Below, piece by piece: positions 21,406 to 56,622 of a DNA stretch of 64,000 nucleotides. The DNA comes from a bacterium. GTDB lineage: Bacteria; SZUA-79; Acidulodesulfobacterales; Acidulodesulfobacteraceae. The position numbers and the translations under genes were made by a program. A model generated the notes under the pieces. That model saw only the letters and a program-made list of their open reading frames with translations. It was not told the DNA's origin and made no database searches. The DNA lies in assembly GCA_003232385.1 (NCBI GenBank), contig QIJE01000040.1, positions 16,666 to 80,665 of the forward strand. The letters are read 5' to 3'. Numbering within the stretch: position 1 is the stretch's first letter; every line of letters begins with the position of its first letter.

Positions 21406-22125
21406 ATGTTCGAAATAAAAAAATTAAAAGAAAATCCCAATATTAAAATATATTCAAAAAAGCATGAAATTCATGCTATACTAAAAAATTTCGCCAATCA
21501 AAAAAAACCTATCGTCATAATCCCAATTCCTTTTAGCGAAGAATATTTCACGAATATTATTGAAGTAAACAACGATTATATAGTTATTGATTCTATAATT
21601 CCCAAGGTAGGCAATATAAAACTCGCGGAATCATCTTACATTAAGGCCGTTTTTAAATTTAACAACAACGAACATTATTTTATTTCAAAATTATACGACT
21701 ATAAAAAATATAAAGAATACTTCGTTTTCTATATTTATAAGCCAATTGAAATATTATCATTAGAAAAAAGAAAATTTTTCAGAATAGAGCCGTCTGTAAA
21801 CAGACCGGTTAGATTGTCTTTTTTATTAGACGATAAATATTATGACACAAAGATGTTTGATCTTTCCGGAGAAGGATTTTCTTTTCTGCTTAAATTTCCG
21901 TTAGAAAAACACACCGTTTTAGAAGAGGTGAAAATTAAGTTTCCCGACGAGTTACCTGAAATTATGATACGGGCGGAAATAAGATCGATAATAAAATTAG
22001 ATAACCTGAAATATAAAATCGGCACTCAAGCTATTAATTTAAAACCAAAGGCTCAAGACATCATGTTTAGATATATATTTAAAAGGCAGAGGGAGATAGT
22101 TGCTTTTATGAAGGGTTCCGTTTAA
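21406..22125 (+). CDS. YcgR-like flagellar brake protein with PilZ domain
   Basis: A 239-aa cytoplasmic protein. An N-terminal YcgR-type beta domain occupies about residues 1-115. The C-terminal PilZ domain carries both c-di-GMP-binding motifs: RKFFR at 122-126 and DLSGEG at 152-157. Bound to c-di-GMP, such proteins act on FliG/MotA or FliM to slow or bias the motor. Its end overlaps the convergent flhX-like gene by 20 bases. Together with the GGDEF and HDOD genes it points to c-di-GMP control of motility. Confidence 0.82.
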   Translation: MFEIKKLKENPNIKIYSKKHEIHAILKNFANQKKPIVIIPIPFSEEYFTNIIEVNNDYIVIDSIIPKVGNIKLAESSYIKAVFKFNNNEHYFISKLYDYKKYKEYFVFYIYKPIEILSLEKRKFFRIEPSVNRPVRLSFLLDDKYYDTKMFDLSGEGFSFLLKFPLEKHTVLEEVKIKFPDELPEIMIRAEIRSIIKLDNLKYKIGTQAINLKPKAQDIMFRYIFKRQREIVAFMKGSV

Positions 22126-22423
22126 GTCGAAAATTCCGTGAATCTCCGGCGGCTTTCTCGTTTACTTTCCAAAGAAATGCAAAAATTTTAGAAACGGCCT
22201 TGTAAAGCTCCGGCGGAATTTCGTCGTAAATATCTAATCTATCAAGCACGTCTGCCAATATCTTATTTTCCATTACAGGTATATTTTCTTTTTTTGCTAT
22301 TTCTATTATTTTTTCGGCAACCTTACCCTTGCCTTTTGCGATTAATACGGGAGCGCTATTTTTTTCTCCGTCATATTTCAGGGCGGACGCTTTAATATTT
22401 TTGCCTGTTTTAGACTCTTTCAT
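22106..22423 (-). CDS. FlhB C-terminal-domain homologue (FlhX-like)
   Basis: A 105-aa protein that aligns with the part of FlhB after its NPTH cleavage site: ALKYDGEKNSAPVLIAKG, ENIPVMENKILADVL and EIPPELYKAVSKIFAFLWKVN. The full FlhB at 37370 has the matching ALRYDGKKHNAPVLLVKG. Free-standing copies (FlhX, YlqH) are known and can replace the cleaved FlhB C-domain in the export switch. It has no membrane segment. It overlaps the FliK-like gene by 14 bases, so the pair is coupled, which fits a shared job in export-substrate switching. Confidence 0.85.
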   Translation of the reverse strand: MKESKTGKNIKASALKYDGEKNSAPVLIAKGKGKVAEKIIEIAKKENIPVMENKILADVLDRLDIYDEIPPELYKAVSKIFAFLWKVNEKAAGDSRNFRLKRNPS

Positions 22424-49071: not shown

Positions 49072-50601
49072 TCATAATCCCAACTCTTTAATTTTATTCC
49101 TCAGCGTCCTTGCGGTTATCCCAAGCCTTTCTGCGGCTTTTGTCCTGTTTCCATTCGTTTTTTTAAGAGCGGCGATGATAAGTCTTTCTTCCATTTCCTT
49201 AATGCTAAGGGACATGAAAGCGGCGCCGAACACCGGATCGGAATCAGATACGGTTTTCTCCGCCGGAAGCCCTGCGGCACACGACATATCGGATGACGCA
49301 ATTGATGTTCTTTGAGACTTTGCCGCTCCGTCTGAAACAACGGAAACCGAACTTATATTTACGTCATTTTCCGCTGCGGTAAAGGAGAGATTGAACCTCC
49401 TAAAATGAACGACGTCTATTGCTTCATCTTTCTGAGCAATGATTACCGCTCTTTCTATTATATTTTCAAGCTCCCTTATATTCCCTGGATAACTTAGCGA
49501 AATTAGATACTTCAGTGCCTCCGGGGTTATTCTTTTACAGTCTCGAAAATATTTCTTTACATACCGCCTCATAAAATATTTTGCAAGGGGTGGAATATCC
49601 TCCCTTCTTTCTCTTAACGGCGGGATATGTAAACGAATTACGTTAAGCCTATAAAAAAGGTCTTCCCTAAAAGTCCCTTCCGATATAATTTTTTCTACGT
49701 CTTTATTGGTAGCGGCTATGACTCTGACATTGATATCTACCGGCTCATATCCCCCCACCCTATCAATAGCTTTTTCCTGAAGAACACGCAAAATCTTAGC
49801 CTGAAGATTTTTATCCATATCGGCTATCTCGTCAAGTAAAATAGTACCCTTGTCTGCCTGTTCAAATTTTCCTTTCTTTGACGAAACCGCCCCCGTAAAG
49901 GATCCCTTTTCATAGCCGAAAAGTTCACTCTCTAAAAGCGTGGGGACTATGGCGGAGCAGTTAATGGCTATAAACCTACCCTCTCTTTTACTGAGGCCGT
50001 GTATCCTTTTCGCCACGACCTCTTTCCCGGTTCCTGATTCTCCCGTTATCAAAACCGTCGCATCTGTCGCCGCAGCAATGCCTATAAAAGAATCTATTTC
50101 TTTCATTTTTTCCGATTCGTATATAAAATCCGATTTATTGGAAACACTGCCGTTATTCCTACCGGCACTCAACACAGAGGATAAAGTCGTAAATGCGGAA
50201 ATTTTTTCCGCATTTACGACCACCCTTTCAAAATCGGTAATATCAAAAGGCTTCAAAAGATAATCGGTTGCACCCGATTTCATAGCCGCAACGGCACTTT
50301 CCACTGTTCCATATGCCGTAATAATTACGAAAGGGATATTTTCATAGCCGTTCCGCTTTTTTATTTCGTGCAAAAAGGAAACGCCGTCCATTCCCGGAAG
50401 ACTTAAATCGCTAATTATAAGAAAATAACGGCAGGCGGTATTGCCGATAGATCGCAAGGCATCTTCGGCAGACGCAAATATCTCCCCTTCCCTGCCGGTT
50501 TTTTTCAAGCTTATGCTTAATGCAGAACGCATGTGACGGTCGTCATCCACTATCAGCACTCTGTCCCGCCTATTTAAATTCAATGCTTTATTATTAGACA
50601 T
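49072..50601 (-). CDS. Sigma-54-dependent response regulator (FlgR/FleR-like)
   Basis: A 509-aa regulator from the ATG at 50601. The frame opens 51 codons earlier, but that stretch runs into the divergent kinase gene and is unlike the family. Receiver: LIVDDDRHMRSAL, Asp65 in ISDLSLPG. AAA+ domain: Walker A GESGTGKE at 187-194, sigma-54 contact loop GSFTGA (usually GAFTGA) at 233-238 and LLDEIADM at 255-262. A Fis-type helix-turn-helix ends the protein (NGNRTKAAERLGITARTLRN). It should activate the sigma-54 promoters in this window when phosphorylated by the divergent kinase. Confidence 0.93.
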   Translation of the reverse strand: MSNNKALNLNRRDRVLIVDDDRHMRSALSISLKKTGREGEIFASAEDALRSIGNTACRYFLIISDLSLPGMDGVSFLHEIKKRNGYENIPFVIITAYGTVESAVAAMKSGATDYLLKPFDITDFERVVVNAEKISAFTTLSSVLSAGRNNGSVSNKSDFIYESEKMKEIDSFIGIAAATDATVLITGESGTGKEVVAKRIHGLSKREGRFIAINCSAIVPTLLESELFGYEKGSFTGAVSSKKGKFEQADKGTILLDEIADMDKNLQAKILRVLQEKAIDRVGGYEPVDINVRVIAATNKDVEKIISEGTFREDLFYRLNVIRLHIPPLRERREDIPPLAKYFMRRYVKKYFRDCKRITPEALKYLISLSYPGNIRELENIIERAVIIAQKDEAIDVVHFRRFNLSFTAAENDVNISSVSVVSDGAAKSQRTSIASSDMSCAAGLPAEKTVSDSDPVFGAAFMSLSIKEMEERLIIAALKKTNGNRTKAAERLGITARTLRNKIKELGL

Positions 50602-50664
50602 ATATTTTAGATATATTATAATATAAAATAACAAAAAGGTTAATTTTATGGTAAAATTTTTCAT

Positions 50665-51834
50665 ATGGCAAAAGAACACATGCAGCCGATAGCGGAAATC
50701 ATAACCGGCAATGAGCTTAAAAAGGCATTCGAATCCTTTGAAATCGCATCTCAAAAACTTTCGGAATATTATAAAAATCTTGAAGACGAGATTAAAGATT
50801 TGAAGGAGAATCTTAACACTGTCTTGGAGAGCTTGCCGTTAGGCGTAATAATAACGGACGGCAACAATATCGTTAAATTTATAAATAAATCATTATCGGA
50901 ACTTATTCCCGAATATGATCTTGTAAATTATTTGGATAGAAGCATAGACGATTTCTTAAATTTCTTCTTTAATGATGGTGCATTGAATCACTTTATAAAA
51001 CCGATTTTCAACCCGATAGAAAAAATGATGAAAGTAGGCAGTAAAAGAGTTATCCCGGTATTTCTATACGTAAAAAATATAAATACCGTCAGTAAAAAAA
51101 ATTCCGGAAGAATTTTTATAATACAAAATATTGAAGAAATAAAAAAATTTAAGAGATTAGCAGAATTAGGAGAAATGTCGGCTAAAATAGCACATGAGAT
51201 AAGAAATCCATTAGGCTCCATAGAATTGTTCGCCTCTATTTTACAGAAAGATCTAAAAGATAAAAACGAAGAACATCTTGAAATTATTTCGCATATAATA
51301 TCTGCCGTCAAAAATATGAACGCGACGATAAACAATGTACTTGAATTTTCTAAGATAGTTAAACCTGCACCGTCAAAGTGTAATTTGCTCGAATCAATAA
51401 ATAAATCCATTATTTATGCATCGTATATAATTAAGCAAAAAAATATAAAAATAATAAGAGAAATAGATAAGAATATTTCGGCGGAAATAGACGAAAATCT
51501 CATTGAACAAGCCTTTATTAATATATTAGCTAACGCGGCGTATGCGGCTCCTAACGATTATGGAACCATCGACATAAAATCATCCATCCTACTTTTGGAC
51601 AACGAGAGTAGTTATATATGTATTAATTTCGAAGACAACGGGCCCGGATTCCCTAAGGATATAATTAAAAATATATTTAACCCTTTTTTCTCTACTAAAA
51701 AAAGCGGCGGTACGGGCTTAGGACTCTCTATCGCCCTAAACAACGTCATGATTCACGGAGGATATATAAATGCCGATAATTCGGAAAAACTCGGTGGTGC
51801 AAAAATTAGTGTCTTCCTGCCATATTTGGCATAG
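50665..51834 (+). CDS. PAS-containing sensor histidine kinase (FlgS/FleS-like)
   Basis: A 389-aa soluble kinase. An N-terminal coiled coil (about 20-50) leads into a PAS domain (LESLPLGVIITDGNNIVKFI). The H-box is AKIAHEIRNPLGSIE with His177. The N-box includes FINILANAAYAA, and DNGPGFPKDI and GGTGLGLSIALNN form the ATP lid. No membrane helices, as in FlgS and FleS, which sense basal-body assembly from the cytoplasm. It is divergent from the sigma-54 regulator by 63 bases and lies directly before flgB. Its stop codon overlaps the flgB sigma-54 promoter. Confidence 0.9.
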   Translation: MAKEHMQPIAEIITGNELKKAFESFEIASQKLSEYYKNLEDEIKDLKENLNTVLESLPLGVIITDGNNIVKFINKSLSELIPEYDLVNYLDRSIDDFLNFFFNDGALNHFIKPIFNPIEKMMKVGSKRVIPVFLYVKNINTVSKKNSGRIFIIQNIEEIKKFKRLAELGEMSAKIAHEIRNPLGSIELFASILQKDLKDKNEEHLEIISHIISAVKNMNATINNVLEFSKIVKPAPSKCNLLESINKSIIYASYIIKQKNIKIIREIDKNISAEIDENLIEQAFINILANAAYAAPNDYGTIDIKSSILLLDNESSYICINFEDNGPGFPKDIIKNIFNPFFSTKKSGGTGLGLSIALNNVMIHGGYINADNSEKLGGAKISVFLPYLA

Positions 51835-51941: not shown

Positions 51942-52370
51942 ATGTTTAGCAAAATATATGATATTTTAGGCGAAAGCCTGAACGTACTTAGCGACAGGCA
52001 AAATATCATAGCATCCAATGTTGCCAATGCGAATACGCCCGGGTACAAGGCTAAAGAATTGAATTTTGAAGAGGTTATGAAAAATCTTGTTCCTTCGCCC
52101 TCTTCCATTCCGATGAAGACAACATCACGCAAGGATTTATCTTATAAAAATATTTATGACGCTACAGAACATAACGGTTCGGGATTTATTAAATCCTTCA
52201 TCAAAAATCAAAAAGACGAATCGGTACCGGCATTAGACGGGAATACCGTCGAAATAGGCAGAGAAATGAGCAATATGACCTCTAATGCGATAAGGTTTCA
52301 AGCTGTAGCGGGTTTGTTGTCGAAGAAATTTGCGACACTGACATATGCAATAACTCAAGCTAATCCGTAA
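51942..52370 (+). CDS. flgB: Flagellar proximal rod protein FlgB
   Basis: A 142-aa rod protein. The N-terminal motif DRQNIIASNVANANTPGYKA and the C-terminal NAIRFQAVAGLLSKKFATL are typical of FlgB. It builds the proximal rod with FlgC, FlgF and FliE. Length is normal; flgC follows after 56 bases. Confidence 0.95.
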   Translation: MFSKIYDILGESLNVLSDRQNIIASNVANANTPGYKAKELNFEEVMKNLVPSPSSIPMKTTSRKDLSYKNIYDATEHNGSGFIKSFIKNQKDESVPALDGNTVEIGREMSNMTSNAIRFQAVAGLLSKKFATLTYAITQANP

Positions 52371-52426
52371 CACGGATCAAGATATATTGAAAAGTTAACA
52401 GAAATGAACAGAAACGAAGGTGTATT

Positions 52427-52819
52427 ATGAGTTTTAACGATTCTTTAAAGATTGCGGCAGAAGGTCTTAATGTAGAAAGAATAAGAATGAACGTCATTGC
52501 TTCCAATCTGGCCAATATCAATACCGATAACGCCGGAAACGGACTGCCCTACGTGAAAAAAGAACCTGTTTTCGAAACGGTTAAATTTAAAAATTATTTC
52601 GGAGTAGAGGTATCAAAGATAGAAAATGTAGAAAATCCGTTTTCAGAAAAATATGACCCCGGCAATCCTTTAGCGAATAAAGCAGGATATGTCAAAATTC
52701 CCAATATATCATCCATAAAGGAGCTTGTAGATATGATATCGGCAACAAAGGCATATAAGGCAGATGCGGAAGTCATAGCAGAATCAAAAGCCATGGCTCG
52801 TGCATCGTTAAAAATTTGA
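52427..52819 (+). CDS. flgC: Flagellar proximal rod protein FlgC
   Basis: A 130-aa rod protein with LNVERIRMNVIASNLANINT at the N-terminus and LVDMISATKAYKADAEVIAE at the C-terminus. GTG-free ATG start with GAAGGTG before it. A 149-base gap separates it from fliE; it contains no ORF, but the fliE start is preceded by a strong AGGAGG-type site (GGAGGGG). Confidence 0.95.
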   Translation: MSFNDSLKIAAEGLNVERIRMNVIASNLANINTDNAGNGLPYVKKEPVFETVKFKNYFGVEVSKIENVENPFSEKYDPGNPLANKAGYVKIPNISSIKELVDMISATKAYKADAEVIAESKAMARASLKI

Positions 52820-52968
52820 CACGGCTATGCTCAATGACCGGTAACTATTTCGGTTAAAATTAAATTAAAATAAAATATGTGATATAATGAAATGAGTAAT
52901 ATATATAATATCGGCGATATTAAACCTAATAAAAAAATTACTAAAAATGGGAAAAGGAGGGGCTTACG

Positions 52969-53283
52969 ATGTCTGTAATTATAAACCCGGACAGCATAAA
53001 AAACCTTAATCCAAACAACATTCTCAAAGGCGGAGAAAATATTGCCGGTGCTCAAAAAGGCGATGGGTCTTTCGGCGATACTCTTTTAAATTCCATAAAT
53101 AAGGTGAATAATCTTCAAATATCCGCCGATAACTCGGCAGAAGATGTTGCTACCGGAAAATCGTCTAATATACATCAGGCAATGATAAATATAGAAAAAG
53201 CAAACGATTCTTTTGAGCTAATGATGCAGGTTAGAAATAAAATTATAACCGCTTACAATCAAATCATGAATATGCAAGTATAA
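52969..53283 (+). CDS. fliE: Flagellar hook-basal body protein FliE
   Basis: A 104-aa protein. The family signature is at the end: SSNIHQAMINIEKANDSFEL, MMQVRNKIITAYNQIMNMQV. FliE joins the MS ring to the rod and opens the export gate. It lies four bases before fliF. Confidence 0.93.
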   Translation: MSVIINPDSIKNLNPNNILKGGENIAGAQKGDGSFGDTLLNSINKVNNLQISADNSAEDVATGKSSNIHQAMINIEKANDSFELMMQVRNKIITAYNQIMNMQV

Positions 53284-53287
53284 ATAA

Positions 53288-53743
53288 ATGGCAGCTACTC
53301 TAAAAAACTTCTCTTCTCAATTAAAAACCTTTTTTAGCGAGCTTTCAATAGAGCGAAAACTCGCATTTTTTTTAGTCGTTATGGCGGTCGCCGTAGCTAT
53401 ATATTTTACTGCAGTATATGTCACGACACCGAATTACGGTGTCCTCTACTCAAATTTAAACCCAACTAGCGCTTCGTCTATAATAACTAAACTTCACTCG
53501 TACGGCATCCCTTACAAACTCGCAGATAGAGGAAAAACCTTATTAATTCCCAAAGGAAGTGTTTATAAAATTAGAATTAAACTGGCATCCATAGGACTGC
53601 CCCATCAGGAAGGGGTCGGGTTCTCTATATTTAATCACGTTCCGATAGGCATGACCGACTTTATACAACACGTAGATTATCAGAGAGCGTTACAGGGCGA
53701 ATTAGAAAGAACAATAAACCAGATTAATTATTGTTTTACCTAG
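53288..53743 (+). CDS. fliF: FliF MS-ring protein, N-terminal fragment (frameshifted)
   Basis: This frame encodes the first 151 residues: a cytoplasmic start, transmembrane helix 1 at about 24-44 (KLAFFLVVMAVAVAIYFTAV) and the first ring-building domain (TTPNYGVLYSNLNPTSASSI, EGVGFSIFNHVPIGMTDF, YQRALQGELERTI). FliF reading should continue from ERTI into the next strand, but the frame hits a TAG at 53741. The missing continuation lies in another frame from 53718. The break is treated under findings. Together the pieces would make a FliF of about 530 residues, a normal length. Confidence 0.9.
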   Translation: MAATLKNFSSQLKTFFSELSIERKLAFFLVVMAVAVAIYFTAVYVTTPNYGVLYSNLNPTSASSIITKLHSYGIPYKLADRGKTLLIPKGSVYKIRIKLASIGLPHQEGVGFSIFNHVPIGMTDFIQHVDYQRALQGELERTINQINYCFT

Positions 53744-54866
53744 GCGTTCCGTCTTCGTTTCAAGAAAAGAGTCCGCAAAGGCATCCATTATAGTTAAGCT
53801 TAAATCCGGTATGTATTTAAGTAGAATGCAGGTGAACGGGATTATACACTTGGTTGCAAGCGCGGTTGACGGCTTAAAACCTAAAAATATTACTATAATT
53901 AATACTGACGGAAAGATTTTATCCATTCCGATAGGAAACTCCTTCAAATATACGGCAAGTCAGTTGGGCTACGTCCATGAAATAGAAAAAAATCTCGAAG
54001 GCAAGATAAACTCTATGTTGATACCGGTCGTCGGAATCGGAAACATTGTCTCTAAGGTTTATGTAAAAGTTAATTTTTCAAGAAAAACCGAATCTCAGCT
54101 AATTTACAACCCGAATACTACGGCTATAGTCTCACAACAAACATATAGTTCATCTTCTACCGGGGCGGTAAGGCCATATGGAATTCCCGGAACAAAATCA
54201 AACCTTCCGCCCGGAAAAATACCGATTCAAGCTGTAAAACCGAGCATCCATACCGTAAAAAAAGAAACGATTAATTACGACGTATCTAAGAAAATAGAAA
54301 AAATTTCTTATCCGACCGGAACTATAAAAAGAATATATGCTTCAGTACTCGTTAACGGAGTGTATAAAAAAATAAAATCTTCAAAGGGTAAGTTTTCAAT
54401 GAAATATGTCCCGAGAAGTTCATCTGAAATGAGCTTATTTAAAAACATAATCAAGACCGCAATCGGATACTCGAAAGCTTCAAAAGACGAAGTCGTGATA
54501 GCCAATATTCCTTTTAAAAAAATGCTTTATACTATACCGGTACCACCTAAAAAAACGATAAAGTCTATAATAGAATCGAACTTCAGCGAAATAGTCAAAT
54601 ACGGGGTTATTTTATTGGGAGTTATATTAATAATATTACTTATTTTAAGGCCACTAATGAAATACATTATGACATATGAATCTAAATCTCCGGCAAGGTC
54701 GTCTGAAGAAGAAAGACTTGAGGCCTTAGATCAAATGAAACGGGAATCCCCTTCTAAACCGGAACCGAGTATGAAAGATATTGCAACTAATATCGTTAGA
54801 TCAGATCCGGAAGCCGCGGCAAATTACGTAAAAAATTTATTAAAAGAAACGGGTAGAGAGACATAA
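53718..54866 (+). CDS. fliF: FliF MS-ring protein, C-terminal fragment (frameshifted)
   Basis: From 53718 this frame reads TRLIIVLPRRSVF and onward through SAKASIIVKLKSGMYL, GIIHLVASAVDGLKPKNITI, which is the direct continuation of FliF. The first ATG in it, 53811, is only an internal Met. A second transmembrane helix lies near the end (YGVILLGVILIILLILRPLM), followed by the FliG-binding tail with SDPEAAANYVKNLLKET. Everything after the break looks intact. fliG starts 4 bases later. Without a full-length FliF no MS ring could form, so this is either an assembly fault or a real loss-of-motility mutation. Confidence 0.88.
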   Translation, partial: TRLIIVLPRRSVFVSRKESAKASIIVKLKSGMYLSRMQVNGIIHLVASAVDGLKPKNITIINTDGKILSIPIGNSFKYTASQLGYVHEIEKNLEGKINSMLIPVVGIGNIVSKVYVKVNFSRKTESQLIYNPNTTAIVSQQTYSSSSTGAVRPYGIPGTKSNLPPGKIPIQAVKPSIHTVKKETINYDVSKKIEKISYPTGTIKRIYASVLVNGVYKKIKSSKGKFSMKYVPRSSSEMSLFKNIIKTAIGYSKASKDEVVIANIPFKKMLYTIPVPPKKTIKSIIESNFSEIVKYGVILLGVILIILLILRPLMKYIMTYESKSPARSSEEERLEALDQMKRESPSKPEPSMKDIATNIVRSDPEAAANYVKNLLKETGRET

Positions 54867-54869
54867 GAT

Positions 54870-55871
54870 ATGCCGAAAAAATTTTCAGGACCCGAGAAAG
54901 CAGCTGTGTTCCTTGTTTCGGTAGGCGAAGAAGCTGCTTCCGAAATAATAAAAAGGTTAGAATTAATGGAAATCCAAAAGATTACCAAATATATGGACCA
55001 GCTCCCCACGATAGAAAAAGAAGATTCTGATTTTATACTTAAAGACTTCAATTCTAATTTTTCAAAAATCGGCTTAGTAGTCAAGGGGGACGACTATATT
55101 AAAAATATTATAGCTAAATCCCTGGACCCCGACAAAGCAAAAAAAATCTTAGATAATCTGCACGGACCGATAGAAGAAGAGGGATTGCAAACACTGAAAT
55201 GGCTCGACCCCCATATTATCGCCGATTTTGTGAAAAACGAGCATCCTCAGACTATAGCACTTATACTCGGGCATTTAGAGCCGACGTCTGCAGCCACGGT
55301 TGTAGGTCTTTTGCCGTCCTCAATAATGTCGCAGGTCGTATTTAGATTATCAAAATTGGAAAGGGTCCCTCCAGGCGTTATAAATGACCTTGATGAAGTG
55401 CTTCAAGAGCAGTTAAAATCGACGGGTTCGACACAAAGCAAGCTTGTAGGGGGTGTCAGAATAGTAGCGGATATTTTAAACAATATGGATAAATCCATAG
55501 AAGAACCTATACTTGCGGATATAGAGAAATTAGATAAGGAAGAAGCGGAAAAGATTAGGGAGCTTATGTTTACATTCGACGACCTTGCGATGGTAGATGA
55601 TAAATCCATGCAACTTATACTTAGAGAAATATCGCACGACCAGATTGTCCTAGCGTTAAAAACCGCATCTGAGGACCTTAAAAACAAAATACTTGCCAAT
55701 GTATCTAAGAGAGCTCAGGAGATGATTAACGATGACTTAGAGGCATTGGGACCGAAGAAACTTTCGGAAGTAGAAAAAATTCAACATGAAATATTAAAAA
55801 TCGTTAGAAGACTTGAGGATGAGGGCAAGATTAGTCTTGCCGTAAAAAATGAAAGCGAAAAACTAGTTTAA
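54870..55871 (+). CDS. fliG: Flagellar motor switch protein FliG
   Basis: A 333-aa protein. N-terminal FSGPEKAAVFLVSVGEEAAS, middle domain with the EHPQ motif in VKNEHPQTIALILGHL and C-terminal torque helix region (FDDLAMVDDKSMQLILREIS). It sits on the MS ring and takes force from the stator. Three bases separate it from fliF. Confidence 0.96.
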   Translation: MPKKFSGPEKAAVFLVSVGEEAASEIIKRLELMEIQKITKYMDQLPTIEKEDSDFILKDFNSNFSKIGLVVKGDDYIKNIIAKSLDPDKAKKILDNLHGPIEEEGLQTLKWLDPHIIADFVKNEHPQTIALILGHLEPTSAATVVGLLPSSIMSQVVFRLSKLERVPPGVINDLDEVLQEQLKSTGSTQSKLVGGVRIVADILNNMDKSIEEPILADIEKLDKEEAEKIRELMFTFDDLAMVDDKSMQLILREISHDQIVLALKTASEDLKNKILANVSKRAQEMINDDLEALGPKKLSEVEKIQHEILKIVRRLEDEGKISLAVKNESEKLV

Positions 55872-55893
55872 TTTCTTTAAAACCGGGGACGGC

Positions 55894-56622
55894 GTGAATA
55901 AAATTTTAAAAGATAATGAATTTAATATTGAAGGGAACGCCTTATATGACGGAAAGAAAACGCTTTTAGTCAATATTCTTAAAACCGAATCCAAAAAAGA
56001 CGACGAAGAGTTGGTAACCGCATTGGAATCGGTTCCTGTTACATTACAGAGATTTGTAATTTCATATTTAGAAAACTATAAACATAAAACTGAGAAAATA
56101 TTAGAAGAAAAAGAGCGGGGTATTTTAGAAAATGCCGAAAAAAGAGGTTATTCTCGGGGATTCAACGAAGGCAAAAAAGAGGCGGCAAGACTGACGGAAG
56201 AAGGGATTAAAGGTATTCTAAAAGCCGCCGATTCCATAGAAAAATTTAAAAATGAATTATACAGAGACGTAAAACAGGATGTAATAGACTTGTCTTTAAA
56301 CATCGCGAAAGCGATAATAAAGTCGGAAGTGGAAACAAATAGAGACTTGATCCTGCGAATAATAGCAGATGCCATAGATAAAGCCGAGGATACGGTAAAT
56401 TTCACGATATATTTAAACTCTGCAGATTACGGCACTTTAAATAAGGATCCGGATGCAATAAAAAATTTTACGGCAAAGGAATCTAATATAGAATTTCTGC
56501 CCGATAGAAACATTTCCCAAGGGGACGTGATAATAAAAACCGATTTTGGCGAAATAGATGCAAGAATAGAAACGCAGATAGAACAAATAAAGAAAATCTT
56601 CACAAAAGTAGCCCCGTGTTAA
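55894..56622 (+). CDS. fliH: Flagellar export ATPase regulator FliH
   Basis: A 242-aa protein starting at GTG 55894. A charged coiled coil (about 60-115, with GYSRGFNEGKKEAARLTEEG) leads into a V-ATPase-E-like C-domain (LSLNIAKAIIKSEVETNRDL, FLPDRNISQGDVIIKTDFGE, IDARIETQIEQIKKIF). FliH binds FliI and anchors it to the C-ring. fliI is not next to it but at 3660. Its stop abuts the convergent gene at 56623. Confidence 0.9.
   Translation: MNKILKDNEFNIEGNALYDGKKTLLVNILKTESKKDDEELVTALESVPVTLQRFVISYLENYKHKTEKILEEKERGILENAEKRGYSRGFNEGKKEAARLTEEGIKGILKAADSIEKFKNELYRDVKQDVIDLSLNIAKAIIKSEVETNRDLILRIIADAIDKAEDTVNFTIYLNSADYGTLNKDPDAIKNFTAKESNIEFLPDRNISQGDVIIKTDFGEIDARIETQIEQIKKIFTKVAPC

Follow-up and report, generated by a model that had tools for sequence, protein, structure and literature searches.

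A broken fliF gene, flanked by fliE and fliG as expected of its position, is found inside the flagellar cluster of the window (the whole 64-kb stretch of DNA that was analysed). The window belongs to a genome, G000, of 1.54 Mb in 40 contigs that is 95.5% complete. The first frame of fliF begins with the ATG at 53288 and ends in a TAG at 53741-53743, directly past ...LERTINQI. The continuation, IVLPRRSVF..., is read in the next frame and meets no stop as far as 54866 (about 1.1 kb). Open reading frames, translation and Pfam all bear out the earlier note in reading this as a broken gene, with two frames running through the same bases. The two pieces match YscJ_FliF 1-105 and then YscJ_FliF 143-178 plus YscJ_FliF_C, so that the two FliF domains are spread over the frames 53288-53743 and 53811-54866 rather than joined in one polypeptide. 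No second copy of fliF that might compensate is present in G000, where the gene is single copy. Coordinates are collected in Table 1.

Table 1. Features at the fliF locus (window positions) and frame-broken genes elsewhere in the same assembly (locus, with contig in brackets)
Feature	Position	Strand	Basis
flgB, flgC, fliE, intact, upstream of fliF	51942..53283	+	ORFs, Pfam, ortholog comparison
fliF 5' part (TM1, RBM1, start of RBM2; 151 aa)	53288..53743	+	ORF/translation; Pfam YscJ_FliF 1-105
8-bp perfect inverted repeat AACAATAA/TTATTGTT spanning the junction	53710..53735	+	judged coincidental
ACCAGATTA, supposed repeat, sole copy in the window	53718..53726	+	window search and comparison with relatives
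fliF junction; 23 bases of all intact relatives absent	53727..53728	+	alignment with 11 loci; best-split test
fliF 3' part in shifted frame (remaining RBM2, RBM3, beta-collar, TM2, FliG-binding tail)	53730..54866	+	open frame of 382 aa
fliG, fliH, intact, downstream of fliF	54870..56622	+	ORFs, Pfam, relatives
secA, single copy, two frames, -31	L131:9448-12077 (G000:C28)		PF07517 profile search
guaA, frame-broken, -17	L084:1078-2587 (G000:C20)		relatives' ORF search
queC, frame-broken, -11	L138:1899-2646 (G000:C36)		relatives' ORF search
Unknown gene, frame-broken, about -35	L082:6408-7230 (G000:C18)		relatives' ORF search
Cupin-like gene, frame-broken, +2	L142:1502-1914 (G000:C40)		relatives' ORF search

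The DNA of fliF was aligned with that of eleven relatives (L002-L012), whose records are titled as metagenome-assembled genomes. Against them the window gene has a single gap of exactly 23 bases, which is the missing length (2 modulo 3) that had been predicted from family spacing and for which an alignment with relatives had been proposed as the check. In the relatives with complete fliF, YscJ_FliF and YscJ_FliF_C lie within a single frame of 532-547 aa, and none has an indel at the gap site. The intact relative L007 matches the solved FliF MS-ring structure (PDB 6scn) with an E value of 5e-67, and both halves of the window gene align colinearly with FliF. The window copy differs from 6scn in being split over two frames and in lacking 23 bases in RBM2, opposite ARTIETLGPVKSARVHLAMP of the structure.

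The earlier note had attributed the gap to collapse between 9-bp direct repeats of ACCAGATTA, and this does not survive comparison with the relatives. The element is 9/9 identical to the left flank in 9 of 19 distinct relative sequences, and a search of both strands found no second copy elsewhere in the 64-kb window. The relatives have codons for Ser-Arg/Lys-Val at the far end, 23 bases downstream, where 3-7 of the 9 bases agree with ACCAGATTA; none of the 19 carries a far copy in the unbroken form, and the best match is 7/9. A far copy would require Ser to become Thr and Val to become Leu at two invariant positions. The relatives were used to fit a codon model, in which an exact right-hand copy has, the deletion itself left aside, a probability of about 1.7e-5, and a match of at least 8 of 9 bases one of about 0.002. 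That ACCAGATTA can be read as both N-Q-I and T-R-L is no evidence of a repeat, as the same holds for any string read in two frames. A precise deletion between two ACCAGATTA copies 23 bases apart, whether made by the cell or by the assembler, is consequently very improbable. It does give the correct length, and L010 (scored as its duplicate L020) has TCCAGAGTA, a 7/9 match, at the far position; the L002/L009 clade even has two ACCAGATTA copies. Those copies are only 9 bases apart, however, so that collapse there would drop 9 bases in frame and not 23. Similarity at a shift of 23 is also unremarkable among shifts of 6-79, and the secA gap of the same assembly has only about 1 nt of apparent microhomology at its junction. 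The relatives differ from the window at about 30% of bases, so that a repeat private to the window's lineage is a remote possibility; nothing speaks in its favour. The L002/L009 arrangement (L002:4868-4920, L009:746-800) is a 9-bp tandem of CCAGATTAA in two copies, which doubles the Asn-Gln-Ile; in other relatives its place is taken by Asn-Ser-Ile.

A reversible slip that switches motility off, the biological side of the same proposal, was rejected and is hardly credible. Phase-variable flagellar genes are known from other bacteria (PMC7677240, PMC11868660). At the fliF break there is no hypermutable tract, tandem repeat or invertible element; the longest run is T4 and ACCAGATTA is single copy. 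All relatives carry the long form. If one copy and a unique spacer were lost, the gene could not flip back, since unique sequence, once removed, is beyond regeneration by slippage. The repeat mechanism and the reversible switch jointly deserve a few percent. Two other readings of the site were discarded. Programmed frameshifting or slippage finds no slippery run, and eight conserved residues would be absent regardless. A deletion driven by a hairpin of AACAATAA and TTATTGTT was dropped because the fold is no better than that of shuffled sequences (z-score -0.26) and such repeats, with loops of up to 30, hold 3.3% of window positions.

The fliF gap is not alone in its assembly. Open reading frames of relatives, which are about 70% identical to G000 at the DNA level, served as queries for 654 kb of the 1.54-Mb assembly, a sample with 334 genes that have orthologs. 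The scan flagged ten as frame-broken, of which eight were kept after inspection: fliF (-23), fliC (-1), secA (-31), guaA (-17), queC (-11), a pilin-like gene (-5, the weakest of the eight), an unknown gene (about -35) and a cupin-like gene (+2). Most of the lesions are thus deletions of 1-35 bases. The same scan applied to relatives as controls found no broken gene among 254 (157 in G007, 87 in G016/G008/G001 and 10 in L002-L012), and a scan in the reverse direction found none among 156. With the two false calls removed, the difference between about 8 of 334 and 0 of 254 is modest (Fisher p = 0.012). One of these calls, a histidine kinase at 50357-51831, was dropped when ten relatives were aligned: the kinase starts at 50665, and the part upstream is only an ORF extension seen in a few relatives. 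The other, at L070:19417, runs antisense across the start of a gene. Concentration of the lesions on short contigs was not significant (p = 0.19).

The lesion in secA is the most instructive. The PF07517 profile finds SecA in G000 on contig C28 only, as two fragments, 224 aa and 680 aa long, and the gap takes out the conserved DEVDSVLID, part of the nucleotide-binding motor. In all 15 other members of the family that were searched, and in most more distant genomes as well, secA is one continuous match. A cell whose only SecA has lost the Walker-B region should not live, and no bacterium is known to live without secA. It follows that false deletions of such size occur in the G000 assembly; lesions similar to that of fliF are found there in genes that cannot be lost, secA and guaA. 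In one unrelated distant genome secA is likewise in pieces (G027:C2:4128-5959), a sign, perhaps, that this assembly has errors too.

An assembly or consensus error is therefore the favoured explanation of the fliF frame break (probability roughly three in four), because similar frame-breaking deletions occur in secA, guaA, queC and other genes of the same assembly. The true fliF would be intact, with 23 bases lost in the joining of reads or contigs, and several other sites in the 40 contigs would have been hit likewise. The fliF gap and the other lesions would then share a technical cause, and the organism is presumably still flagellated. Of the suggestion that the assembly had collapsed a repeat, the assembly fault is thus favoured and the repeat, for lack of a far ACCAGATTA, is not supported. 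Some observations count against an artefact. At an ordinary k, a short-read assembler would not be expected to create a 23-base deletion that no reads support; G000 has intact rpoC and dnaE; and two of the eight lesions (fliF and fliC) fall in motility genes, as expected from real motility loss. The fliC break, in the main flagellin (L038:1483-2303, G000:C23:16079-16899), is a 1-base frameshift close to a T run, with a contig end 311 bases away, an error of typical kind. That flagellin is also cut by contig ends, and its C-terminal part lies on L060 (G000:C34:4836-5090).

Many frameshift pseudogenes of public assemblies are assembly errors, and their numbers vary with the assembler, the platform and the coverage (PMC11017572, Cooley and Wright 2024). 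The G000 lesions resemble them in that genes of unrelated functions, growth genes included, are intact in relatives and broken in one assembly. The difference is that most of the G000 gaps are of 5-35 bases.

The main competitor is a real deletion of 23 bp that happened recently, through illegitimate recombination at little or no homology, and would leave the strain, or the dominant strain of the sample, fliF-null and without flagella. This is unlikely, although well ahead of the other alternatives. Among about 59 window orthologs fliF alone is broken, and a second flagellar gene, fliC, is frame-shifted on another contig. Small indels are a well-documented cause of spontaneous motility loss. 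For example, in non-motile Campylobacter jejuni motA mutants, among them one with a 5-bp deletion, an indel breaks the frame of a single flagellar gene and the remaining regulon is intact, as for fliF here (PMC3928116); motility is also lost during serial passage of C. jejuni (PMC7677240). In Salmonella, flagellation is abolished by deleting fliF or merely 10 residues of RBM2, and a fliF null is non-motile (PMC8092281). The motA mutations were verified by resequencing, with reversion in three of four classes, whereas in G000 the evidence is sequence, and the lesions extend to secA and other genes outside the flagellar set. With secA and guaA broken alike in the same assembly, such lesions are not trustworthy at face value.

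Selection on fliF is not relaxed, which also argues against a real deletion, though a very recent loss would leave no such sign. In a two-ratio codon model omega was 0.086 on the window branch (95% about 0.056-0.13) against a background of 0.075 (2dlnL 0.42); constraint on fliF was normal up to a very recent time, or is so even now. Were all the lesions real, the lineage would have an unusually high rate of homology-free microdeletions of 5-35 bp, with gene erosion throughout the genome, fliF and fliC included, and a truncated SecA survived somehow; this is highly improbable. The fliF break is most likely neither a biological switch nor a real feature, and a genuine lesion would be nothing more than an ordinary null mutation. 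One broken gene in an assembly of metagenome type is poor ground for inferring motility loss or phase variation, and whether the breaks in such an assembly can be trusted is quickly seen from its secA and similar genes.

The rest of the flagellar and chemotaxis set in the window looks intact, judged from Pfam and from three orthologous clusters with which it was compared. It includes flgB-E, flgG-I, flgK-N, fliE, fliG-M, fliO-R and fliW, as well as flhA, flhB, motAB, cheA, cheB, cheR and cheW. In flgC (52427-52819) omega was 0.109 on the window branch against 0.029 (2dlnL 6.96, one of seven tests). A 105-aa ORF at 22106-22423, beside a FliK-like gene, has its match confined to the C-terminal region of FlhB (profile 263-334) and looks like a paralogue of that region.
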